Positions 1-34,452 of a stretch of DNA of 40,158 nucleotides are shown here, one piece after another. The notes beneath the pieces are model-generated. The model did not search any database. It was not told the origin of the DNA and saw nothing but the letters and a program-made list of their open reading frames with translations. Both the position numbers and the translations under genes were made by a program. Each line of letters opens with the position of its first letter. The stretch's first letter is position 1. This stretch comes from Caulobacteraceae bacterium (GTDB lineage Bacteria > Pseudomonadota > Alphaproteobacteria > Caulobacterales > Caulobacteraceae): positions 1 to 40,158 of the forward strand of contig JAQGIW010000214.1 in assembly GCA_028290905.1 (NCBI GenBank), given 5' to 3'.

Positions 1-3000
1 CCCGCGGCCGGCGACGCCCCGTGCCGGCGGGCGCGGCGGGCCCAGGCCGGTCGCCAGAGGGCGAGGATGATCGCCGGCAGGGCGAAGAGCACGCCCAGGG
101 TCGAGGTTGCCAGGCCTCCCAGGATGACGATGGCCATGGGCCCCAGGATCTCGCGTCCCGGCTCGCCGGCCTGCAGCGCAAGCGGCGCCAGGGCGAGGGC
201 CACCATGAGGGTGCTGATCAGCACCGGCGCCAGCCGCTCGCGCGCGGCCAGGGTGACCGTCTCCAGCGACCAGGGCGCCCGCCTGCCGAGCACCCGTTCC
301 TCCAACTCCGCGAACAGCAGGATCGCGCCGCGCATGGAGAGGCCGAAGAGGGCGACGAAGCCGACGACCGCCCCCAGCGACAGCACCCCGCCCATCAGCG
401 CCACGGCCGCCGCGGCCCCGATCAGGGAGAACAGGGTCGAGGCCAGGATCAGCGCCCCGGTGCGCCCGTCGAAGGCGACGGCGAGCACCCCGAAGATGAG
501 GAACAGGGCCAGGACATAGTCGACCAGCAGGCTGTTGCCCGACCCTTCGTCGACCTCTCCGGGCGCGCCGAATTCGAAGAAGGCGCCGGGCGGCGGCGTT
601 ACGTGTTGCGCGATCGCCCGGCGCGCACGGCGGGTGAAGCCGGCGAGGTCCCTCGGACTGGCCGTCACGACCTCCCGCCGCAGGCCGGCGTCATGGGCAA
701 TCACGGCCCGGTCGTCGGTGAGATAGACATCGGCCACCGCTTTCAGTGGCACGGAAACGCCCGACGCGGACCGCAGCAGCAGATCGCCTACCGCCTCCGG
801 GTCGCGCCGCAGGGATTGCTGGGCGCTCACCGCCAGGTCGACGACCCGGCCGCCCTCGTAGATCTGGGCCACCCGCTCGCCCGCGAAGGCGGCCTGGACG
901 GTGGCGAGGATGTCGGCCGACGAGAGCCCGAACAGCGCCAGCCGCTGGAACTGGATGTCCGCCCGCACCACCGGCGCGCGGGGCGGATTGTCCACGCGCA
1001 CCTCCCGCGCGTCGGGCAGGGCGCCGATCGCCGCGGCGATGCGGCCGGCGGCGAGGTCCACGGCGTCGAGATCCTGGCCGTAGACGCTGACCTGGAACGG
1101 CGCGCCCGGCCGGTCGCCGAGCCGCAGGTTGTCGAAGCGCGAGGTGACGGTGGGGGCGAGGCCCGGGAAGGCGCGCAGCCGGTCCAGGACCCGTCCGGCG
1201 ATGCGCCTCTGCTCCGCCGAGCCGAGGCCGGGCGCCAGGGCCAGGTCGAAGACGCTGCGCTCGGGCCCCCAGCTGTCGTCGCCTGTGGGGTCGCGGCCGA
1301 TCCGCTGGCTGATCGACCTGACGCCGGCCAGCGGCGCCACGGCGGCGGCGATCCGCTGGCCGAAGTCCCGCGACACCGCCAGCGAAGAGGAGGGCGGCCC
1401 GCTCACCTGGGCGACCAGCTGGCCGTCCGGCACGGTCGGGGTGAGGGCGGCGGGGAAGGTGAGCAGCGCCGCGACCGCCACCGCCGCCAGGACCGCCGAC
1501 ACCGCCATCACCGCGCGCCGCCGGGGGCAGAATCGCGAGAGCCACCGCCCGTGCGCCGCCTTCAGGCGGGTCAGCCCAGGGGAATCCGGGGAGGGGCCCA
1601 CGTGCCGCAGGAACAGCAGGCAGAGCGCCGGCGTCACCACCACGGCCACCACCAGCGACGCCAGGGAGGCGACGATGACGGCGGCGGCCAGGGGGATCAG
1701 CAGCGCCCCCTGCGCGCCCTTCAGGAAAAGGATCGGCGCCAGGGCCACGATGACCGCCAGGGTGGCGTAGATCACCGGGCCGCGCACCTCCAGCGAGGCG
1801 GCGCGAACGGCCTCGGCGCGCGACCCCCGCTGCGCCTCGGCGTCCCTCAGGTTGGCGAGGATGTTCTCCATGTCGATCGCCGCGTCGTCGATGACCACCG
1901 CCAGCCCGACGGCGAGGCCGCCCAGGGTCATCGCGTTCAGCGTCATCCCCAGCGCCTTGAGGGCCATGGCGGCGGCCAGCAGCGAGAGAGGGATGCTGAT
2001 CATGGAGATCAGCATGGCCCTCGGGTCTCGCAGGACGACCAGCAGGGCGAGGACGATGAGGCCTGCGCCGATGGCGAGATCCAGGGCGACGCCCTTCAGG
2101 GCGGTGGTCGCGAATGTGGCCGGCCGGTCGAGACCGGTCCGGATGGTGACGCCCTGGGCGGCGAGCGCCGGAGCCAGGTCGGCCAGCGCCTTCTCCACGG
2201 CGTGGGTGGTGCGCAAGGGGTTGGCCCCATACTGCCGGGCGATATCCACGAGGACGCCGGGCTGGCCGTTGATCAGGGCGTCTCCCGACGCGGGCGCGGG
2301 AGCCTCGACCACGTCGGCTACGTCGCCGATGCGCACGGGCGCGACGCCGGAGACCTGGATCTGGCCGGCCGCCACGTCCTCCTTGGTGAGCGCCTGGCCG
2401 TGGGGCTCGATCTCGACCCGCTGGGAATCGGTGTCGATGAACCCGGCCCCGGCGACGCCGGTCGCACGCCGCGCGGCATTCAGGATGTCGAGGAAACCCA
2501 GGTCGCTGTCGGAGAGATCGGCCGGCCGGGCGCGCACCTCGATGCGCCGGGTCTGGCCGCCGTAGACCGCCACCCGGGCGACGCCCGCGGCGGCCAGCAG
2601 CCGCGGGCGGACGGTCCACTGGACCACGTCGCGAAGCGCCATGGGGTCGAGCCTGGCGCTGGTGAAACCGATCTCCAGGACCAGGGCCCGGCGTGGCGTG
2701 AGGGGCGCGAGGCGCGGCGGCGAGACGCCGTCCGGCAGGGCGCCGGCGACGCTCGACAGCCGCTCGGCGATCCCCTCGCGCACCCGGTAGGGCTCGGCGC
2801 CCGGCGCGAAGCGGATGGTGATGACGGAGAGGCCCTGCACCGATTCCGAATGCACGGCCGCGACCCCCGCCGCGCCGATCAGGAGAGTCTCGATCGGCCG
2901 CGTGACCAGGTTCTCCACCTGCTCGGCGACCAGTCCCGGCGCCTCGGTCTGAATGGTGGTCTCGGCGGGGGCGAGCTCGGGCAGGAGATCGAAGGGGATG

Positions 3001-3100: not shown

Positions 3101-4117
3101 TCAGGAGGCCGCGCCGGAGTCATGCATAGTGTGCTCCGATTCAGCCAGCGAACGTATGCCGTTCGCCGCCATCGGAGCACCGGGCAGGCTCTGCTCCGCG
3201 GTGAAGAGCGCCGCCGCCCCCCGGGTCACCACCTCGTCCCCGGGCGAAACGCCCTTGGGGACGAAGAAACCGTCAGCCTGGGGAACCGGGCTCTCGAGCA
3301 GCCGCCGCTCGAACACGCCAGGTCCCGCGCGCACATAGACCCAGTCGGATCCCTTGAACCGGATGATCGCGGGGCGGGGAACGAGGACACCGGACTGGGC
3401 GGTCCGGGTCTCGATGTGGGCGCTCTGGGTCAGGCCCACCGAGAGCAGGATGGCGCTTGGACCCGTAACCTCGACGATCAGGCCCGAAGACTGCAGGCGC
3501 GGCTCTGCCGCCCGCGCCGGCCCGAGGACGACGCCGGCCGCCGAGCCGTCGCCGATGTCGACCTTGACCGCGCGAGCCCCGGCCTGCCCCTCGTCGTTGT
3601 GGGTGTCGACGTGCACCAGGGCGATCTTCCCGGCCGCGAGGCCGCGGACCAGCCGCGCGCGCGCGGCGGCGCTCATCCTGGCCACCCCCGGTCCCCACTC
3701 CAGTCCGACCCGGCGGCGAAGGATCCCGACCTTCAGGGCGTCGGACCGCGCCTGGGCCACCGCCGCCTCGACGTCCTTCTGCGAGACGCCGCCGTCCGCG
3801 GCGTGCAGGGCGCTCGCCCGGGTCGCTTCGGCGCCGGACGCGGCGGCGGCCGCCTCGGCGGTGGCCAGGTCCGTATCCAGCTGAACCAGTGGCTCGGGAT
3901 CGAGCACCTTGGCGAAGGCGTCGACCTCGGCGGCCCGGTGGGTCAGGGTCATGGTCCGGGTGGCGACGCCCAATTCGCGCTGGACGGCCGGGCTCAGCCG
4001 CACGCCGGCCGCGGAGGCGGGGCCGCCCCAGGGCGCCAGGCTCAGGAGGGCGAGGATGAGGGTGAGAAAGGCGGGCGCACCGCGCCGCTGGCGGCTAGTG
4101 GTGCAAATCAAACACAT
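3101..4117 (-). CDS. RND periplasmic adaptor (membrane fusion protein)
   Basis: Periplasmic adaptor linking the RND pump to the outer-membrane factor, 338 residues, shorter than the usual 370-420. A signal peptide is visible at about residues 9-36 (RQRR n-region, Leu/Ala-rich core, cleavage near PASAAG). The middle has the alpha-hairpin region (about 75-135, Ala-rich, with GGVSQKDVEAAVAQARSDAL), followed by beta-barrel and membrane-proximal segments (LVPRPAIIRFKGSDWVYV, SPGDEVVTRGAAALF). The lipoyl half-motifs are degenerate, in keeping with its short length. The first seven codons (M-C-L-I-C-T-T) lie inside the palindromic repeat at 4095-4220, so the present start codon may have come from that element; a TTG two codons further in is an alternative. 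The RBS is weak (GGGGATTGG). Confidence 0.82.
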   Translation of the reverse strand: MCLICTTSRQRRGAPAFLTLILALLSLAPWGGPASAAGVRLSPAVQRELGVATRTMTLTHRAAEVDAFAKVLDPEPLVQLDTDLATAEAAAAASGAEATRASALHAADGGVSQKDVEAAVAQARSDALKVGILRRRVGLEWGPGVARMSAAARARLVRGLAAGKIALVHVDTHNDEGQAGARAVKVDIGDGSAAGVVLGPARAAEPRLQSSGLIVEVTGPSAILLSVGLTQSAHIETRTAQSGVLVPRPAIIRFKGSDWVYVRAGPGVFERRLLESPVPQADGFFVPKGVSPGDEVVTRGAAALFTAEQSLPGAPMAANGIRSLAESEHTMHDSGAAS

Positions 4118-4220: not shown

Positions 4221-5713
4221 GCCTTGTCACGCCAGCCCCCTCCCAGCGCCTGGAAAAGGGCGACGGTGTCGGCATAGCGGGCGCCGCGGGCCTGCGACAG
4301 CGTGAGGCGGGCCTGGCGGTCGGCCGCTTCGGCGCCCAGAACCGGCAGGATGCCCACCTGGCCGTACTCGAAGGCGTTCCGCGCCAGCCGCAGCGATCGC
4401 CCGGCCGCCGTCGCCGCCGCGTCGGCGTGCTTCAGGGCTTCCGCGTCGTCGACGATGGCCTGCAGCACGTCCGCGGTGTTCTGCAGGGCCGTGAGCACGG
4501 CGCTGCGATATTGCGCCTTGGACTGGTCGAACGCCGCCTCCGCCGCCCTCTGCCTGTGGCGCAACGCTCCGGCGTCGAACAGAGTCTGGGCCACCCCGCC
4601 GCCGACCGACCAGAAGGCGTTGCCGTTGGAGAACAGGGTGTCGATGCGGGTCGAGGCGCCGCCCGGAACGGCTGAGATCAGGAAGCTGGGCAGCCGGGCC
4701 GCCGTGGCCACCCCCACCTGGGCCGAGGCGGCGTGCAGATTGGCCTCCGCGGCCCGCACGTCCGGACGCTGGCGCACGAGCTCGGAGGGTAGGCTGACCG
4801 GCAGCTCGACCGGCAGCGACAGGTCGTTGATTCTCGGCCGATCCGCGGGCGCCAGGGAGGGCCCACGGCCGAGCAGGGTCGCCAGCAGATCCCGCTGCTG
4901 GTCGATCTGCCTCTGCAGCGGCGGCGCCAGCTGCCGCGCCTGCTCCAGCGTGGTCTGAGCGGCCGCCACGTCCGCCGTCGACGCCTCGCCGATCCGCTGC
5001 TGGCGCTGGGTCACCTCGAGCGTGCGGCGGTCGGCCTCGATCACCCCCAGGGTCTCGTCCATCTGGCTGTCGAGGCTGGCCAGCTGGATCACCGCGTTGG
5101 CGACGTTGACCGTCAGCGTCAGATAGACCGCCTGGGTGAGGAAGCGCTGGTTGTCGGCCTGGGCCGCCGTGGACTCGATCTGGCGGCGAACGCCGCCGAA
5201 CACGTCCGGGACGTAGGCGATGTCGAACTGGGCGGTATAGAGCCCGTAGCTCTGGGCGTTGTTGGCGAGGAGCGGGGCGATGGTTTCGGAATTGTGAGCC
5301 CGCACGGCGTTGGCGGCCAGCTCCACGGTCGGGAACAGGGCGGCGCGCTGGGCCAGGTAGAGTTCGCGGGCCTGCTTCAGCGCCGCCTGGGCCGAGGCGA
5401 GATCGGCGTTGGCCTTCAGCGCCTCGTCCTCGAAGGCGTCGAGCCGGGGAGAGCCGAACAGGGTCCACCACCGGCCTTCGACCGGCGCGCCCTGGGCGAA
5501 CCGTTGCGAGATGTCGCCGCCGCGCGCATCGCCCCGGCCGGCCGAAGCCGTCCGGGCGGGCAGCGGGGTCGGCGTATAGCCCTCGACCGCCGGCGCGGCC
5601 GGAGTGTGGAAGTTCGGTCCCACCATGCACCCGGCAAGGCCGCCCGCCGCAGAGACCCACACAAGGGCGCCCGCGAAACGGCCGACGCGCCGGAACGGCA
5701 TTCTATGATCCAC
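4217..5713 (-). CDS. Outer-membrane efflux lipoprotein, NodT/OprM family
   Basis: Outer-membrane channel of the tripartite pump, 498 residues, normal for the RND outer-membrane lipoprotein (NodT) family. A lipoprotein signal is clear: a basic n-region, a hydrophobic core and the lipobox LAGC at about residues 26-29, followed by MVGPNFHTPAAP, the classical opening of this family. Two OEP repeats follow, with long coiled-coil Ala/Gln-rich stretches (ADLASAQAALKQARELYLAQR near 100-120; DVRAAEANLHAASAQVGVATAARLP near 315-340). It is the first gene of the operon outer-membrane factor - adaptor - RND pump on the minus strand. The stop codon TAG is formed by the CTAG terminus of the palindromic element. 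ATG at 5701 is an alternative start with the same lipobox. Confidence 0.92.
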   Translation of the reverse strand: MDHRMPFRRVGRFAGALVWVSAAGGLAGCMVGPNFHTPAAPAVEGYTPTPLPARTASAGRGDARGGDISQRFAQGAPVEGRWWTLFGSPRLDAFEDEALKANADLASAQAALKQARELYLAQRAALFPTVELAANAVRAHNSETIAPLLANNAQSYGLYTAQFDIAYVPDVFGGVRRQIESTAAQADNQRFLTQAVYLTLTVNVANAVIQLASLDSQMDETLGVIEADRRTLEVTQRQQRIGEASTADVAAAQTTLEQARQLAPPLQRQIDQQRDLLATLLGRGPSLAPADRPRINDLSLPVELPVSLPSELVRQRPDVRAAEANLHAASAQVGVATAARLPSFLISAVPGGASTRIDTLFSNGNAFWSVGGGVAQTLFDAGALRHRQRAAEAAFDQSKAQYRSAVLTALQNTADVLQAIVDDAEALKHADAAATAAGRSLRLARNAFEYGQVGILPVLGAEAADRQARLTLSQARGARYADTVALFQALGGGWRDKA

Positions 5714-8557: not shown

Positions 8558-8686
8558 CGAGGCGCCGCGTGACAAATCGGTGACGGCGGCGCATTGGCGT
8601 GCCGCGCGATGCGCACGGCGGCTTTAGGCTGGCGCTCCGACGCGATTCGAACGGCAAAAGCCGTCGACCCACCACGGGGAACTGCA

Positions 8687-11293
8687 TTGAAACCACACCG
8701 CGCCACGCGCGCCCTCTTGGCCAAGGGTGTCTCCAGCCTTGCTCTGGCGCTGGCGGCGACGCTGCCCGGCGCCGCCTGGGCGGCGGACGCCGATCAAGCC
8801 GCCGCGCCTTCCGGGACCGGCCCGATCAGGACGGCGCCGACGGAGGTCGGCGAGGTGGTGGTCAACGGCATCCCCTTCCGGGAGACGGTGCTGCCGACGA
8901 GGCTGTCCTCGAACTCGGTCTACGGCCTGGACCTCAACGTGATGGACACGCCGCGCAATACGACGCTGCTCTCCACGACCCAGCTCGAGACCCTGAACAT
9001 CCAGGATCCGCGCGCCTTCTCCTACCTCACCGCCAGCAGCTACAGCGACAGCTCCTTCGGCACCCCGAACATCCCGCGCATTCGCGGCCAGTACGCCGAC
9101 GTCTTCTACAACGGCATGCGCTTCTCGTTCACCCAGAACGGCTATGGCGCGCCGCCCAACTTCGACGACCTGGACACCATCAGCATCACCAAGGGCCCGG
9201 CCAGCGTCGTCGACGGCCCGGGACCCGGCGCGGGCGGCCAGGCGGACTTCATCACCAAGCGGCCCAGTCTCACCCACTGGGTGGAGTCCGCCTCGGCCTC
9301 CTTCGATACGGTGAGCAACCGCCGCTGGACGCTGGACGTCGGCGGCCCGATCATTCCCGACGTACTGGGCTTGCGGATCAGCTATTCCGGCGAATACAGC
9401 GACAGCTATTTCTACAAGCATTACCTGCACAAGAACGCCGTCTATGGCGCCCTGCGCTGGACGCCCAACAACCAGTACCAGCTCGATTTCAACTTCGAGG
9501 TCAATTCCCAGCAGTATATCGAGAACGTCGGCGTCAACCGGGTCAATCAGAACCTGATCGACAACAATCAGTACCTGCAGGGCGCGCCGTCGGGCGAGCT
9601 GTTCTCCACTCTGATCGGCTTCGGCTTCCCGCTGCAGGTCGGCTCGCCCGGCAACCCCTATTCGCCGGTCACGCCGATCCTGACCGAGGTCACGCTTGCC
9701 GGAACCAGGCCGCTTGATCCGCGCATCACGATCGACCAGGCGCCCGGCGTGTTCTCCCAGGCCCTGTCGTTCAATCTGCAGCTGATCCAGTCCTATCGCC
9801 TGAGCCCCGACACCACGATCGAGGACAACGCCTTCTTCGCCTACCAGGACAGCGAGAACCGGGAACCCTACTATTACGCCGACGCCTCCCTGGGATCGTG
9901 GTCGTTCGAGAACCGGGCCGACATCAAGACCCATTTCACGTTCTCGCTCCTGGGACTGGACATCAAGAACGAGATGATCGCCGGGGCGACCTTCCGTTTC
10001 GCCCACGTCAACTACATCAGCGACTTCAGCGCCGAGACGCCCGGCGTCTTCGACCTGACCGGCGCCCCGAACCTGTGGGTCTGGGACAACGCCGTCCAGA
10101 TCGCCTTCGCCGACGCCTTCCCCTACCAGACCTCGTTCGGCCACCAGCAACTCGGAGTTCCCGGGCGAGACAGCGTCAGCCTTGGCAACGACGGCGTCTC
10201 CGACCTCTTCGACACCGGCTTCTTCTTCCAGCACCGCATGGAGGTCACGCCGCAGTTCAGCGTGCTCTACGGCGGACGGATCGATCTGGTGCAGGACCAC
10301 TCCTTCGACCCCCTCGGCGGGCCGGTGTGCGGAAACTGCTTCACCCACGTCTACAATCAGCCCAACGTCCCCCTGCCGCAGAGCCACACCACCGGCGTCT
10401 ATGGCCTGGGCAACGGCAACCTCAGCCTCGTCTATCGGCCCAAGCCCTGGGTGAGCGGCTACATCACCTTCGACTTCACCCAGAGCGAGAATTCCAACGG
10501 CGGGGAGGGCGGGATCAACGCCTTCCTGCAGGTTCCCGACCACGTACTGCTGCGCTCGGACAGCTACCTCTACGAGGCCGGGCTGAAGTTCAACCTGCTG
10601 AACAACAAGCTGTTTGTCGGCCTGGCCGGTTTCGACCAGAAGCGCGACCTGCCCACCGGCGCCGGCGGCAACCAGTTCTCCCACGCCAACATCCGCGGCG
10701 TGGAGGTCGAGGCCAACTACCAGCCCACCCGCAACCTGTTCGCCACCGCCGGCTACTCCTACATCGTCACGACGCTGAACAAGCCGGCCGGCTTCTACAA
10801 CTATCCCGCCGAACCGGGGCTCAACGTGGATGGCGCGGGCCTCTTCACTGTCTTCACGCCGGGGCAGAAGTTCAACGACCCCGGCGTCCCCCAGCACGTC
10901 TTCAACTTCCTGGGCAACTACAAGTTCGACAACGGGATCGGCTTCCGCTTCGGGGTGCAGGTCACAGGGCCCATCGAGACCACCACCTCGGGCTTCATCG
11001 ACGTCAATGCCTCGAACCTGGGCGGATTCCTGGGCCAGCCGCTCGTCCCGCAAAGCATCTCCAGCACCGCCAACGCCAACGGTATCGCCTACTACCACTC
11101 GCCGGTCATCCCTTGGCAGTACACGATGAACGCTTCGGTGTTCTACCAGTGGAGTCACTACACGCTGACCTTCTCGGTCTACAACTTCACCGACCAGATC
11201 AACTGGGAATCGGCGCCGGCCTTCTACGGCAACGACTTCCTGGTCCGCAGCGACCCGCGCACCTTCGAGATCCGCCTTCAGGCAAAGTTCTGA
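8687..11293 (+). CDS. TonB-dependent outer-membrane receptor
   Basis: Outer-membrane 22-strand barrel receptor for energised uptake of a large substrate, 868 residues from the chosen start. TTG at 8687 is preceded by GGGGAA with 5-nt spacing, and the product then starts MKPHRATRALLAKGVSS with a signal peptide ending PGAAWA at about residue 32. The next segment has a TonB-box-like EVGEVVVNG, then a plug domain (IRGQYADVFYNGMRF; ISITKGPASVVDGPG; GGQADFITKRPS). The barrel ends in the C-terminal aromatic signature IRLQAKF. The plug resembles siderophore-type receptors, but no ligand can be assigned. It converges on the SARP-type regulator gene, a possible control partner. An in-frame GTG upstream gives a longer N-terminus without a better RBS. 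Confidence 0.9.
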   Translation: MKPHRATRALLAKGVSSLALALAATLPGAAWAADADQAAAPSGTGPIRTAPTEVGEVVVNGIPFRETVLPTRLSSNSVYGLDLNVMDTPRNTTLLSTTQLETLNIQDPRAFSYLTASSYSDSSFGTPNIPRIRGQYADVFYNGMRFSFTQNGYGAPPNFDDLDTISITKGPASVVDGPGPGAGGQADFITKRPSLTHWVESASASFDTVSNRRWTLDVGGPIIPDVLGLRISYSGEYSDSYFYKHYLHKNAVYGALRWTPNNQYQLDFNFEVNSQQYIENVGVNRVNQNLIDNNQYLQGAPSGELFSTLIGFGFPLQVGSPGNPYSPVTPILTEVTLAGTRPLDPRITIDQAPGVFSQALSFNLQLIQSYRLSPDTTIEDNAFFAYQDSENREPYYYADASLGSWSFENRADIKTHFTFSLLGLDIKNEMIAGATFRFAHVNYISDFSAETPGVFDLTGAPNLWVWDNAVQIAFADAFPYQTSFGHQQLGVPGRDSVSLGNDGVSDLFDTGFFFQHRMEVTPQFSVLYGGRIDLVQDHSFDPLGGPVCGNCFTHVYNQPNVPLPQSHTTGVYGLGNGNLSLVYRPKPWVSGYITFDFTQSENSNGGEGGINAFLQVPDHVLLRSDSYLYEAGLKFNLLNNKLFVGLAGFDQKRDLPTGAGGNQFSHANIRGVEVEANYQPTRNLFATAGYSYIVTTLNKPAGFYNYPAEPGLNVDGAGLFTVFTPGQKFNDPGVPQHVFNFLGNYKFDNGIGFRFGVQVTGPIETTTSGFIDVNASNLGGFLGQPLVPQSISSTANANGIAYYHSPVIPWQYTMNASVFYQWSHYTLTFSVYNFTDQINWESAPAFYGNDFLVRSDPRTFEIRLQAKF

Positions 11294-31019: not shown

Positions 31020-31391
31020 CTAGTGACCCCCCTCGACCCACGGCACGCCGGCGTCGCGGAACGCCTCCGCCAGCGCCGCTTCCAGGTCGATCGCCTCCCA
31101 TCGGCGCAGCGGATTGAGGTGCTCGACGAGCTCCGGCAGCAGGCGGACGCCGAAGCGGCGCACGGCCCCGCTCGCCTTGTACCCGCTCTTGTGCTGATCG
31201 AACCGCAGGTCCGGATCGCGCGACGTCTCACCGACGTACAGGCCCCAGCGGCCAACCCGGCGGCTGTCGTTGAGAAGAACGACATAGACGGAATGCCCGG
31301 CGCCCCTGACCCCTGCCGTAGTGGCCCGCAGCCGCCGCGCGGCCCGTTCCGCGAGCCCGATCCACTCCGGCAGATAGGTGGTGTGACTCAT
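31020..31391 (-). CDS. GIY-YIG nuclease-like small protein
   Basis: 123-residue protein with a degenerate GIY-YIG signature: SVYVVLL (about 34-40) stands for GIY and GLYVGET (50-56) for YIG. Arg63 and His67 in DLRFDQHKSGYKAS and Glu104 in AIDLEAALAEAF are at the positions of the catalytic Arg, the following conserved residue and the metal-binding Glu. The fold is therefore plausible and the active site mostly intact. No DNA-binding domain is fused. It stands alone, convergent with the LysR gene; nearby genes give no clue to function. A larger plus-strand frame over the same bases lacks protein-like sequence. Confidence 0.68.
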   Translation of the reverse strand: MSHTTYLPEWIGLAERAARRLRATTAGVRGAGHSVYVVLLNDSRRVGRWGLYVGETSRDPDLRFDQHKSGYKASGAVRRFGVRLLPELVEHLNPLRRWEAIDLEAALAEAFRDAGVPWVEGGH

Positions 31392-31492: not shown

Positions 31493-32620
31493 TCAGACGA
31501 CGAAGTCCCGGGCGAACTGGCGCAGGTCCTCGGCATAGAGGTCCGGCGCCTCCCAGGCCGGAAAATGGCCGCCGCGTGGGAAGACCGTGTAGCGCCGAAG
31601 GTTGTACAGCCGCTCCGCCAGTTCGCGCGGGGGCAGGGCGAGGTCGTGCGGCCAGATTCCCAGGGCGGTGGGCGCGCGCACGAAATCCTCGGCCTTCAAG
31701 GGCGGTCGAAGCCGACTGGCCTCGTAGTAGTAGCGCACTGACGAGCCGATGGTCCCGGTTGTCCAGTATACCATCAGGTTGTCGATCAGCATCTCGGCGG
31801 GGAACACCGAGAGCACGTCGCCGCCGCAGTCGGACCAGGCGCGGAACTTCTCCCCGATCCAGCTGGCCATGCCCGCCGGGGAGTCCGCCAGCGCGAAGGC
31901 CAGGGTCTGCGGGCGCGAGCTCTGAATGGCCTGGTAGCCGCCCTCGTCGCGGTTCCAGATCGCCCCCCGCTCGGCATAGGCGATCTCGTCCGCTGTCGGG
32001 GGCGGGCCAGCGGGCGCGGCCGGCTTGGGGGCGACGCCCGAGACGTGCGCGCCGAGCACCCGCTCGGGATGGCGCAGGGCGATCCGCGTCGCCACCCCCA
32101 AGCCGATGTCGGTTCCCGCCACCACGAACCGCTCATGGCCGATCGCGGTCATCAGCCTGGGAAACAGGTCTGAGGGCTCGACCTGATAGGGTGAGGTCGG
32201 CCGGTCGGAGAAGCCGAAGCCGGGCAGGGCGGGTACCACCACCTCGAACGACGGCTGGCCCTGTGCGAGCAGGGGCGCGAGCCGCTGGTATTCCACGAAG
32301 CTGGACGGCCAGCCATTCATCAGCAGCAGGGGAATAGGCGCCGGCCCTTCGCCTTTGAAGTGCAGGAAGTGGACGCCGTAGCCATCAATCTCGGCGCGGA
32401 AGTGCGGAAGTCGGTTGAGCACCGCGCGTCGCTCGCTCCAGTCGTAATCCTGCGCCCAGTAGCGGGTCAGCTGCTGCAGGAATCCCCGCTCCATCCCTTG
32501 GGACCAGTCGGCCGTGACCGCGTCGTTCCAGCGCGTGGCGTGCAGGCGGCGCCTGAGATCGGCCACTACCTCGGCGTCCCAGGGGATTTCAAACGGAACG
32601 ATCATGGTCGGGTCGCTCAT
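31493..32620 (-). CDS. Epoxide hydrolase (EHN-domain alpha/beta hydrolase)
   Basis: 375-residue epoxide hydrolase of the microsomal-like type. The N-terminal EHN domain (about 8-115) starts IVPFEIPWDAEVVADLRRRL. The core has the oxyanion segment LLLMNGWPSSFVEY (NGWP for HGWP), the nucleophile Asp171 in VAGTDIGLGVATRIA and the catalytic His352 in FPRGGHFPAWEAPD. The reaction is epoxide to vicinal diol; the substrate is unknown. ATG 32620 is preferred over 32623 and 32632 because of its spacing from AGGG, but these differ only by a few residues. Divergent from the chimeric gene at 32711. Confidence 0.88.
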   Translation of the reverse strand: MSDPTMIVPFEIPWDAEVVADLRRRLHATRWNDAVTADWSQGMERGFLQQLTRYWAQDYDWSERRAVLNRLPHFRAEIDGYGVHFLHFKGEGPAPIPLLLMNGWPSSFVEYQRLAPLLAQGQPSFEVVVPALPGFGFSDRPTSPYQVEPSDLFPRLMTAIGHERFVVAGTDIGLGVATRIALRHPERVLGAHVSGVAPKPAAPAGPPPTADEIAYAERGAIWNRDEGGYQAIQSSRPQTLAFALADSPAGMASWIGEKFRAWSDCGGDVLSVFPAEMLIDNLMVYWTTGTIGSSVRYYYEASRLRPPLKAEDFVRAPTALGIWPHDLALPPRELAERLYNLRRYTVFPRGGHFPAWEAPDLYAEDLRQFARDFVV

Positions 32621-32680
32621 CATCCCTAACATCCGCCGAAGTCGTTTTCGACTGTACAGCCGATAAAGCCAAGTTAGTCT

Positions 32681-32698
32681 CGCCCCTCGCCAGGGGCG
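32681..32698 (+). promoter_or_regulatory. Hairpin overlapping the RBS of the chimeric gene
   Basis: CGCCCCT (32681-32687) pairs perfectly with AGGGGCG (32692-32698) around a 4-nt loop. The 3' arm overlaps the GGCGGGGA ribosome-binding region that precedes ATG 32711, so the structure could limit translation. Confidence 0.4.
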
Positions 32699-32710
32699 GG
32701 GATATTGCCG

Positions 32711-33376
32711 ATGAGCGCGATTGACGCCCTGGTCGCGGAAACCCCGCCGGCGCGACGCCAGGGCGACGTCCTCGGCCACCCGCGCGGCCTCATGTACCTG
32801 GTCTTCGCCGAGACTTGGGAACGCTTCTCCTTCTACGGCACGCAGGCGCTCCTGATGCTCGACGTGGGGGCGCTCTTCCTCGCCCTGGCGATCGCCGCTT
32901 CGGCTTCGGCGCAGACCGGGATGAGCCCGGCCGCGCCTGAGGCCAAGGCGCCACCGCCGTGGATCGCCGGGGCATGGCGCCTCATGGGCACGCGCCAGCG
33001 CATGACCGACGGCGCGACGCGGCCCGATCCCGACCTGGGCGCCCACCCTGTCGGCTACATGATGTACGACGCCTCCGGACGGATGTGCACGGTGTTCGAC
33101 AGCGACGAACGGCCGCGCTGGGCCTCCGCGCCCCCGACCGACGCCGAGCTGCGGGCCATGTTCGACCACATGCTCGTCTATTGCGCGCGCTACGAGGTCG
33201 ACGAGTCCAGGGGGTACATCGTCTACCACCTCGAGATCGGCCAGTCGCCGAACACCGCCGGGACCATGCGCGAACGCCGCTTCGAGCGCCTGGGCGACAC
33301 CCTGACCCTCTACCCCACCCCGCTGCCCGCCGGGGTCGTGGAGTGGTCGATCAGCCTGCAGCGCGTCCAGCCCTGA
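32711..33376 (+). CDS. Chimeric protein: POT transporter N-terminus fused to exported lipocalin-like domain
   Basis: 221 residues in two unlike parts. Residues 1-50 (with DVLGHPRGLMYLVFAETWER and FSFYGTQALLML) match the opening of POT/PTR-family peptide transporters up to the end of the first membrane helix. From residue 52, VGALFLALAIAASASAQTG looks like the core of a separate signal peptide, followed by a lipocalin-like domain (about 80-220: WIAGAWRLMGTRQRMTDG, HPVGYMMYDASGRMCTVF, YCARYEVDESRGYIVYHLEI, ERLGDTLTLYPTPLP). The join, near 32860-32866, looks like an in-frame deletion that removed the rest of the transporter and the 5' end of the second gene. GTG at 32864 could start the second part but lacks an RBS. 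The stop overlaps the glycosyltransferase start (TGATG). Confidence 0.75.
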   Translation: MSAIDALVAETPPARRQGDVLGHPRGLMYLVFAETWERFSFYGTQALLMLDVGALFLALAIAASASAQTGMSPAAPEAKAPPPWIAGAWRLMGTRQRMTDGATRPDPDLGAHPVGYMMYDASGRMCTVFDSDERPRWASAPPTDAELRAMFDHMLVYCARYEVDESRGYIVYHLEIGQSPNTAGTMRERRFERLGDTLTLYPTPLPAGVVEWSISLQRVQP

Positions 33377-34452
33377 TGGAGCCGCGGGCGCGTCGGCCCC
33401 TGCGGCTGTTGGCGGTGACCTGGGACGGCGGCGGCAACCTGCCGCCGCTCGTGGGACTGATCGAGGCGCTCGTCGCCGCTGGCCACCAGGTCTCGAGCCT
33501 CGCCCACCGGACCCAGTCCGCCGCGCTCACGGCCGCGGGCGCCCGGGTGTTGGGGTATGATCGCGCGCCGGAGCGGGACGCCGGCGCGCCCGACCCCGGG
33601 GGCTATGAGTGGCTGACCGCCTTCGATGGCGCGGCGGGCGAGGATCTGGCGGCGGCGGCCAGCCAAGTGGCGCCCGATGTCCTCCTGATCGACTGCATGA
33701 TGCCCGCGACGTTGGAGGCGGCCGCCGGCCTAGGACTTCCGGTCGTCGCGCTGGTCCACACGGCATGGCAGACCCTGCGCGACTACCTCGGCGGCGTGTT
33801 CCGCCGCCCCGCGGAGGCGGCGCCCCTGGGCCTGGTGTTCAGCTATCGCAAGTTCCACACCGGCGTGGCGCCGGACAACTTCGTCTGGGTCGGTCCGGCG
33901 CGCGGACACGCAGGGGCGAGCTCGTGGCGCCGCCGCGCACCTGGCCTTCCCCTGGTGCTGGCCAGCCTCAGCACCGCCCAGCAGGGGCAGGCGCCGGTGC
34001 TGCGCAATCTCTGCCAGGCCCTCGCGGCCCTGGACGTCGAGGCGCTGGTCACGGTCGGGCGGGCTTTCGATCCGGCGGCCCTGCCGGCCGGAGGGCGCGT
34101 GAGCCTGGAACGCTCCGTGCCCCATGAACACGTCCTCGGCGAGACCGACCTCCTGATCACCCACTGTGGCCACGGAACGACGATGGCGGCCCTGGGCTTC
34201 GGGGTTCCCATACTGTGCCTGCCGGGGCGGGGCGACCAACCCGCCGTGGCGGCGCGGGTCGCCGGGCTCGGCCTGGGTGAAATCCTCGACACCGGCTCGT
34301 CGCCCGACGCCATGGGCGCGGCCATCATCCGGTTGCTGGCCGACCAGGCGATGCGCGATCGCGCCCGCGCCTTCGCGCTCGAGGTGGGCCGCCACCCCGG
34401 AACCAACCTGGCGGTCGCCCGGATCGAGGCTCTGGCGGCGACCGCCGGTTGA
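33376..34452 (+). CDS. UDP-glycosyltransferase-like (MGT/GT1 family) protein
   Basis: 358-residue GT-B fold glycosyltransferase. The N-terminal half opens LRLLAVTWDGGGNLPPLVGL and EALVAAGHQVSSLAHRTQ, the acceptor domain. The donor-binding half carries the signature LITHCGHGTTMAALGFGVP followed by LPGRGDQPAVAARVAGLGLG. The family transfers sugars to small hydrophobic acceptors such as macrolides, carotenoids or sterols; the acceptor here is unknown. At 358 residues it is shorter than the typical 390-420, with no obvious missing motif. ATG 33376 overlaps the preceding stop by one base, indicating translational coupling to the chimeric gene; larger same-frame starts upstream are out of frame with that gene and not protein-like. 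Confidence 0.87.
   Translation: MEPRARRPLRLLAVTWDGGGNLPPLVGLIEALVAAGHQVSSLAHRTQSAALTAAGARVLGYDRAPERDAGAPDPGGYEWLTAFDGAAGEDLAAAASQVAPDVLLIDCMMPATLEAAAGLGLPVVALVHTAWQTLRDYLGGVFRRPAEAAPLGLVFSYRKFHTGVAPDNFVWVGPARGHAGASSWRRRAPGLPLVLASLSTAQQGQAPVLRNLCQALAALDVEALVTVGRAFDPAALPAGGRVSLERSVPHEHVLGETDLLITHCGHGTTMAALGFGVPILCLPGRGDQPAVAARVAGLGLGEILDTGSSPDAMGAAIIRLLADQAMRDRARAFALEVGRHPGTNLAVARIEALAATAG

Follow-up and report, generated by a model that had tools for sequence, protein, structure and literature searches.

We found that a single open reading frame in the genome of a Caulobacteraceae bacterium joins the start of a POT peptide transporter to an exported lipocalin-like domain. The chimera is confirmed as a feature of the sequence, as the initial annotation of this DNA had described it, and we consider it fairly probable that it is a genuine fusion gene, private to its lineage.

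The window, by which we mean the whole stretch of DNA that was analysed (40,158 nucleotides), holds the frame on its forward strand from an ATG at 32711 to a TGA at 33376. The frame encodes 221 residues without an internal stop, and the join between the two parts keeps the frame, as had been claimed; an in-frame TTG lies two codons 5′ of the ATG. The chimera and its surroundings have the following layout.

31493 to 32605, reverse strand: epoxide hydrolase, divergent, upstream of the chimera
32681 to 32698, forward strand: perfect 18-nt hairpin, 12 nt 5′ of the start codon (fold of 32670–32740)
32711 to 32860, forward strand: POT transporter head, residues 1–50 (profile, structure-sequence and relative comparisons)
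32861 to 32884, forward strand: switch zone, codons 51–58, which may belong to either family (codon and pairwise comparison)
32864 to 32914, forward strand: signal-peptide-like hydrophobic core and ASA-Q cleavage-like site, residues 52–68 (hydropathy)
32966 to 33313, forward strand: Lipocalin_5 domain, residues 86–201 (Pfam)
33376 to 34452, forward strand: glycosyltransferase with an EryCIII-like C-terminal domain, its start overlapping the chimera stop (Pfam and direct reading)

The starts of the chimera and of the divergent epoxide hydrolase are separated by 105 bp, all of it upstream of the POT start. The hairpin occurs once in the genome (pattern search with up to 1 mismatch), and the fold of 32670–32740 is ordinary for its composition (z = -1.1). 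A sigma-70 promoter and terminator scan of 32500–33500 found neither; for this organism, the lack of a promoter hit says little. The stop of the chimera and the next start overlap as TGATG, read directly in the sequence, in agreement with the coupling of the glycosyltransferase that had been described.

Two protein families in one frame

We characterized the head of the chimera by profile, structure and DNA comparisons, all of which bear out its earlier identification as a POT start. The NCBIfam model for oligopeptide:H+ symporters (TIGR00924) matches residues 20–50 (E = 1e-7); because the match spans 31 of 475 profile positions, its 31.4 bits lie far under the whole-family cut-off of 130.2. 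Four further POT models in NCBIfam match the head more weakly, and sequences of solved POT structures match inside residues 12–56 (best E = 2.5e-6). Compared with POT genes in two genomes of the same genus (G003 and G007; E about 1e-17), the DNA of the head has 78% identity over 110 bp in one case and 79% over 99 bp in the other. It contains the ExxER motif (E34-T-W-E37-R38), which we take to be the motif of POT helix 1, and its parent gene is a short POT of the 'WERFSFYG' type.

The chimera lacks both the length of a full transporter (12 or more helices) and a score above the family cut-off, and its POT part is weakly hydrophobic: averaged over 19-residue windows that begin anywhere from residue 21 to 36, hydropathy ranges from -0.04 to 0.41. 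Residue 44 is Thr, compared to Met in 46/46 POT relatives, which are the best-matching fetched sequences for the head rather than a random sample of the family. The Met-to-Thr change requires one base, and it suggests that the head has lost its role as a transporter.

Pairwise matches to short POT proteins end mostly at residue 50, while a few extend to 53 or 57. The residue aligned with position 51 is Tyr in 42 and Phe in 4 of the 46 relatives, compared to Asp in the chimera. Residues 51–57 can be aligned to one POT (L035), from whose gene codons 51–54 differ by one base each, so the switch cannot be placed more closely than codons 50–58. The abrupt change that the initial annotation put at residues 51–52 is thus upheld as a change, and it could fall anywhere in that range.

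Signal peptides combine a charged n-region, a hydrophobic core and small residues at positions -3 and -1. A second, signal-peptide-like core had been noted in the chimera, and hydropathy calculations locate it at about residues 52–68 (peak at 54–62, followed by ASA-Q). Residues 45–65 are hydrophobic, and a low-confidence AlphaFold model from the single sequence places a helix at 45–64. The putative Sec signal has the core and the ASA-Q site, together with an n-region of about 50 residues, which is an unusual length.

The remainder of the protein is lipocalin-like, as had been proposed. Lipocalin_5 (PF13924) matches residues 86–201 with an E-value of 8e-18 and 65.1 bits against a gathering cut-off of 25, covering model positions 1–118 of 142; no other Pfam family matches the chimera at E = 1, and at that threshold no second member of Lipocalin_5 was found in the genome. 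The AlphaFold model is mainly made of strands from residue 88, at a poor mean pLDDT of 44.7.

The nearest lipocalin belongs to a family relative (contig C37 of G111) and is 56% identical, its alignment to the chimera beginning at residue 53 or 60 depending on the program. It has no transporter start and possibly begins with an ordinary short signal peptide (MRAIWIAGIAGALVLTGSAAQ). A more distant lipocalin (G1051, 41%) has a signal-like start too. Lipocalin-only searches at 1e-10 returned matches in 6/385 genomes of a class sample and in 5/398 genomes of an order sample, the chimera's own genome included in both, and no relative closer than G111 was found in either. Alignment with intact POTs and with lipocalin-like relatives, which the initial annotation had recommended, shows each half matching its own family.

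The fusion and its source genes in other genomes

The initial annotation had asked whether many relatives encode the same fused protein. In a search of 390 genomes of the family (up to 7 candidates scored per genome), 8 yielded a match that passes E = 1e-12, and both halves were covered only in the chimera's own genome. The seven other matches cover residues 60–221, 76–220, 74–220, 55–191, 2–58, 36–201 and 77–211. Two candidates for a shared fusion were rejected on inspection of their starts: G020 (match 36–201) has an ordinary signal-peptide-like start instead, and G202, matched over 16–210 in an earlier family search, has a lipocalin frame whose start bears no likeness to POT.

No relative with the same fusion was found in 16 genomes of the genus (own included). 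An earlier family search at E = 0.001 returned matches in 292/299 genomes, as expected because the POT head is common, and none of the matches listed was the same fusion. Among plasmid records, 34 had a match and 0 covered 80% of the query. A single match of 28 residues, from one contig scan, was judged spurious. Those parts of the literature on Lipocalin_5 and on bacterial peptide transporter/lipocalin gene fusions that were available to us held nothing relevant.

We searched for the head and the tail apart across 138 loci and found that both match only in 7 copies of the window's own locus. In the remaining 131 loci, the head matches in 78, the tail in 23 and both in 0. Separate but adjacent ancestral genes, which a fusion born by deletion should have left in relatives and for which the initial annotation had advised looking, were thus absent from these 131 loci. 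The flanks of the head-match loci have a median of about 1.5 kb (7 loci have 3 kb or more on each side) and the loci partly overlap, so this adjacency test is of limited reach and a more distant neighbour could escape it. Accordingly, the proposal that a deletion fused two neighbouring genes is left without support.

The surroundings of the source genes were compared using ten proteins of the window against the relatives' loci; among the neighbours, only the epoxide hydrolase and the glycosyltransferase matched. A homologue of the glycosyltransferase (47%) is present in G111 on a different contig from the G111 lipocalin, so that genome does not show lipocalin and glycosyltransferase as a pair. 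About 5 kb from the G111 lipocalin lies a match to the epoxide hydrolase (36%), which was not accepted as synteny.

Genuine fusion or assembly artefact

The genome is a draft of 317 contigs with a completeness estimate of 96%. We queried it with a full-length related POT and recovered the head on the window's contig (C17), a different subtype on C53 (39%), a likely tail on C243 (E = 0.03) and a long POT on C47, whose open frame of 594 residues runs close to the contig end. A query of the other POT subtype added a short C194 remnant, a marginal match on C306 and a weak match to a C182 protein that resembles another major-facilitator transporter. With these queries of two subtypes, no body belonging to the head's POT gene came up in the assembly, which is 96% complete by estimate.

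The POT body on C53 (L127, within positions 1–740, reverse strand) is of the WDRISFHG type and corresponds to the L021 query from about residue 198 onwards. At about 700–735 it meets the apparent 5′ portion of a truncated PEP-CTERM gene in forward orientation, a join that could be either gene decay or a false assembly join. For the missing first part of this POT, no match was reported in the assembly besides the other POT loci. The starts of C53 and C243 (L127 and L128) share an overlap of exactly 23 nt that lies inside a single POT gene and is perhaps a trace of the assembler's word length. The C17 head and the C53 body are unlikely to be one gene, because the head is WERFSFYG-type whereas the body has 84% identity to a WDRISFHG-type POT.

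On C194 (L132, about 4468–4706), a 26-residue POT C-terminal tail adjoins an inverted 47-residue C-terminal remnant of a nitronate monooxygenase. A nitronate monooxygenase gene shares a stretch with a POT gene in three genus relatives (L068, L072 and L075), and one sits on C243; the C194 remnant is 79% identical to the C243 gene, compared with 86–90% for three genus relatives' genes over nearly their full length. It is possible that the C194 remnants are the debris of a second POT-nitronate monooxygenase locus. Three of the four POT loci in the genome, C47 being the fourth, are thus cut at odd joins, and such a concentration within one family is better explained by gene decay than by random assembly faults, with the caveats of a small number and a POT-targeted search. 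In a genus relative (C475 of G011, L076), a POT frame of 151 residues breaks at about 2160–2200, POT-like sequence apparently continuing in another frame; by its sequence, this seems to be a frameshift or a sequencing error.

A DNA search of the genome with 32606–33376, in which 33 of 296 candidates were scored, returned the locus itself and four imperfect matches of 26–64 bp; the longest of these is to the head of the POT gene on C47. In five other stretches of the genome, exact matches to 32801–32930 reach 14 nt at most, and repeats inside 32300–33700 are short (12–18 nt). A Pfam scan of the 28 other frames in the window revealed no clear second join; its gaps are 3101–4117 (no match), 31020–31391 (partial, under the cut-off) and 8594–11293 (plug domain only). 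The last of these is an 899-residue frame with a TonB plug domain and without a Pfam match to the receptor barrel.

An assembly artefact, in which the start of a POT gene and a lipocalin locus unrelated to it were wrongly placed on one contig (C53 may be a similar case), is a serious possibility, though we hold it doubtful. The draft is divided into 317 contigs, and C53 presents another abrupt join between two truncated genes in opposite orientation; if that join is false, suspicion falls on the one in the window. The 23-nt overlap shows the assembly breaking inside POT genes, the fusion appears in 1/390 family genomes, and the frame would be kept by chance in 1 case in 3. A genuine fusion also has against it that it is known from a single draft genome, that its source genes were seen together in none of the relatives' loci compared and that the repeat check at the join covers 33 of 296 candidates in the genome.

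Nevertheless, a false join should leave the remaining POT gene somewhere, and no contig matches it. Within the candidates scored and the five stretches compared, no repeat was reported at the join, the 28 other frames lack a clear second join, and residue 44 is changed where all 46 relatives retain Met. The missing POT body, the lack of a reported repeat, Thr44 and the other POT debris in the genome together favour a real event.

Proposed mechanism and comparison with known systems

In the chimera, the first 50–58 codons of a short WERFSFYG-type POT gene continue in frame as the signal-peptide core of a lipocalin-like gene. If the fusion is genuine, the rest of the POT gene would have been taken out by a non-homologous deletion or rearrangement, along with the start codon and the initial signal-peptide residues that the lipocalin gene had of its own. 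What is left of the POT gene would then supply the start codon, the ribosome-binding site and probably the promoter, as well as a long, positively charged n-region. The Sec machinery would recognise the core at residues 52–65 and signal peptidase would cut after residue 67, the last of ASA, so that the mature lipocalin-like protein would be the one made before the event. An internal start at Met49 (32855) or Val52 (32864) would be an alternative path to the same product. The glycosyltransferase would be translated from the chimera message via the stop-start overlap. Judging from these sequence features, the product is likely a precursor with a long n-region that is cut to an ordinary, presumably periplasmic lipocalin-like protein.

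The initial annotation had offered the transporter start as both translation start and membrane anchor. The former is plausible by position, while a permanent anchor appears less likely than a cleavable signal peptide because ASA-Q follows the core. As a sub-case of the genuine fusion, whose probability overlaps with its own, the POT start could have been selected as an uncleaved membrane anchor holding the lipocalin-like domain on the periplasmic side, a functional innovation that we consider quite unlikely. The retained frame, start and downstream coupling fit such an anchor, as do the hydrophobic residues 45–65. However, the cleavage-like site, the weakly hydrophobic POT part and Thr44 all speak against it, and selection is not measurable when no second genome has the fusion.

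A broader account, in which the genome is dismantling its short-type POTs by repeated non-homologous rearrangements (C17, C53/C243 and C194) and one remnant has come to serve a new lipocalin-glycosyltransferase operon as its module for expression and export, is rather unlikely. A genuine fusion would be a small natural example of the start of a decaying membrane-protein gene coming, in one step, to provide translation start and export for an exported protein unrelated to it; the general view would stay as it is. Should the join be an assembly error, its only significance would be as a caution about the draft.

Compared to the POT/PTR2 proton-coupled peptide transporters (TIGR00924, PF00854), the chimera is alike over residues 20–50, a segment with ExxER and the beginning of helix 1, and it lacks everything beyond residues 50–58, or about 90% of a transporter. 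With exported Lipocalin_5 proteins such as that of G111, it shares the domain and the signal-peptide-like core ahead of it; unlike the chimera, the G111 protein can start from a short signal peptide without a POT start. In fusion genes formed by deletion or rearrangement, a 5′ fragment of one gene gives the start for the body of another. The chimera resembles these genes in that a POT 5′ fragment gives the start to a lipocalin body.
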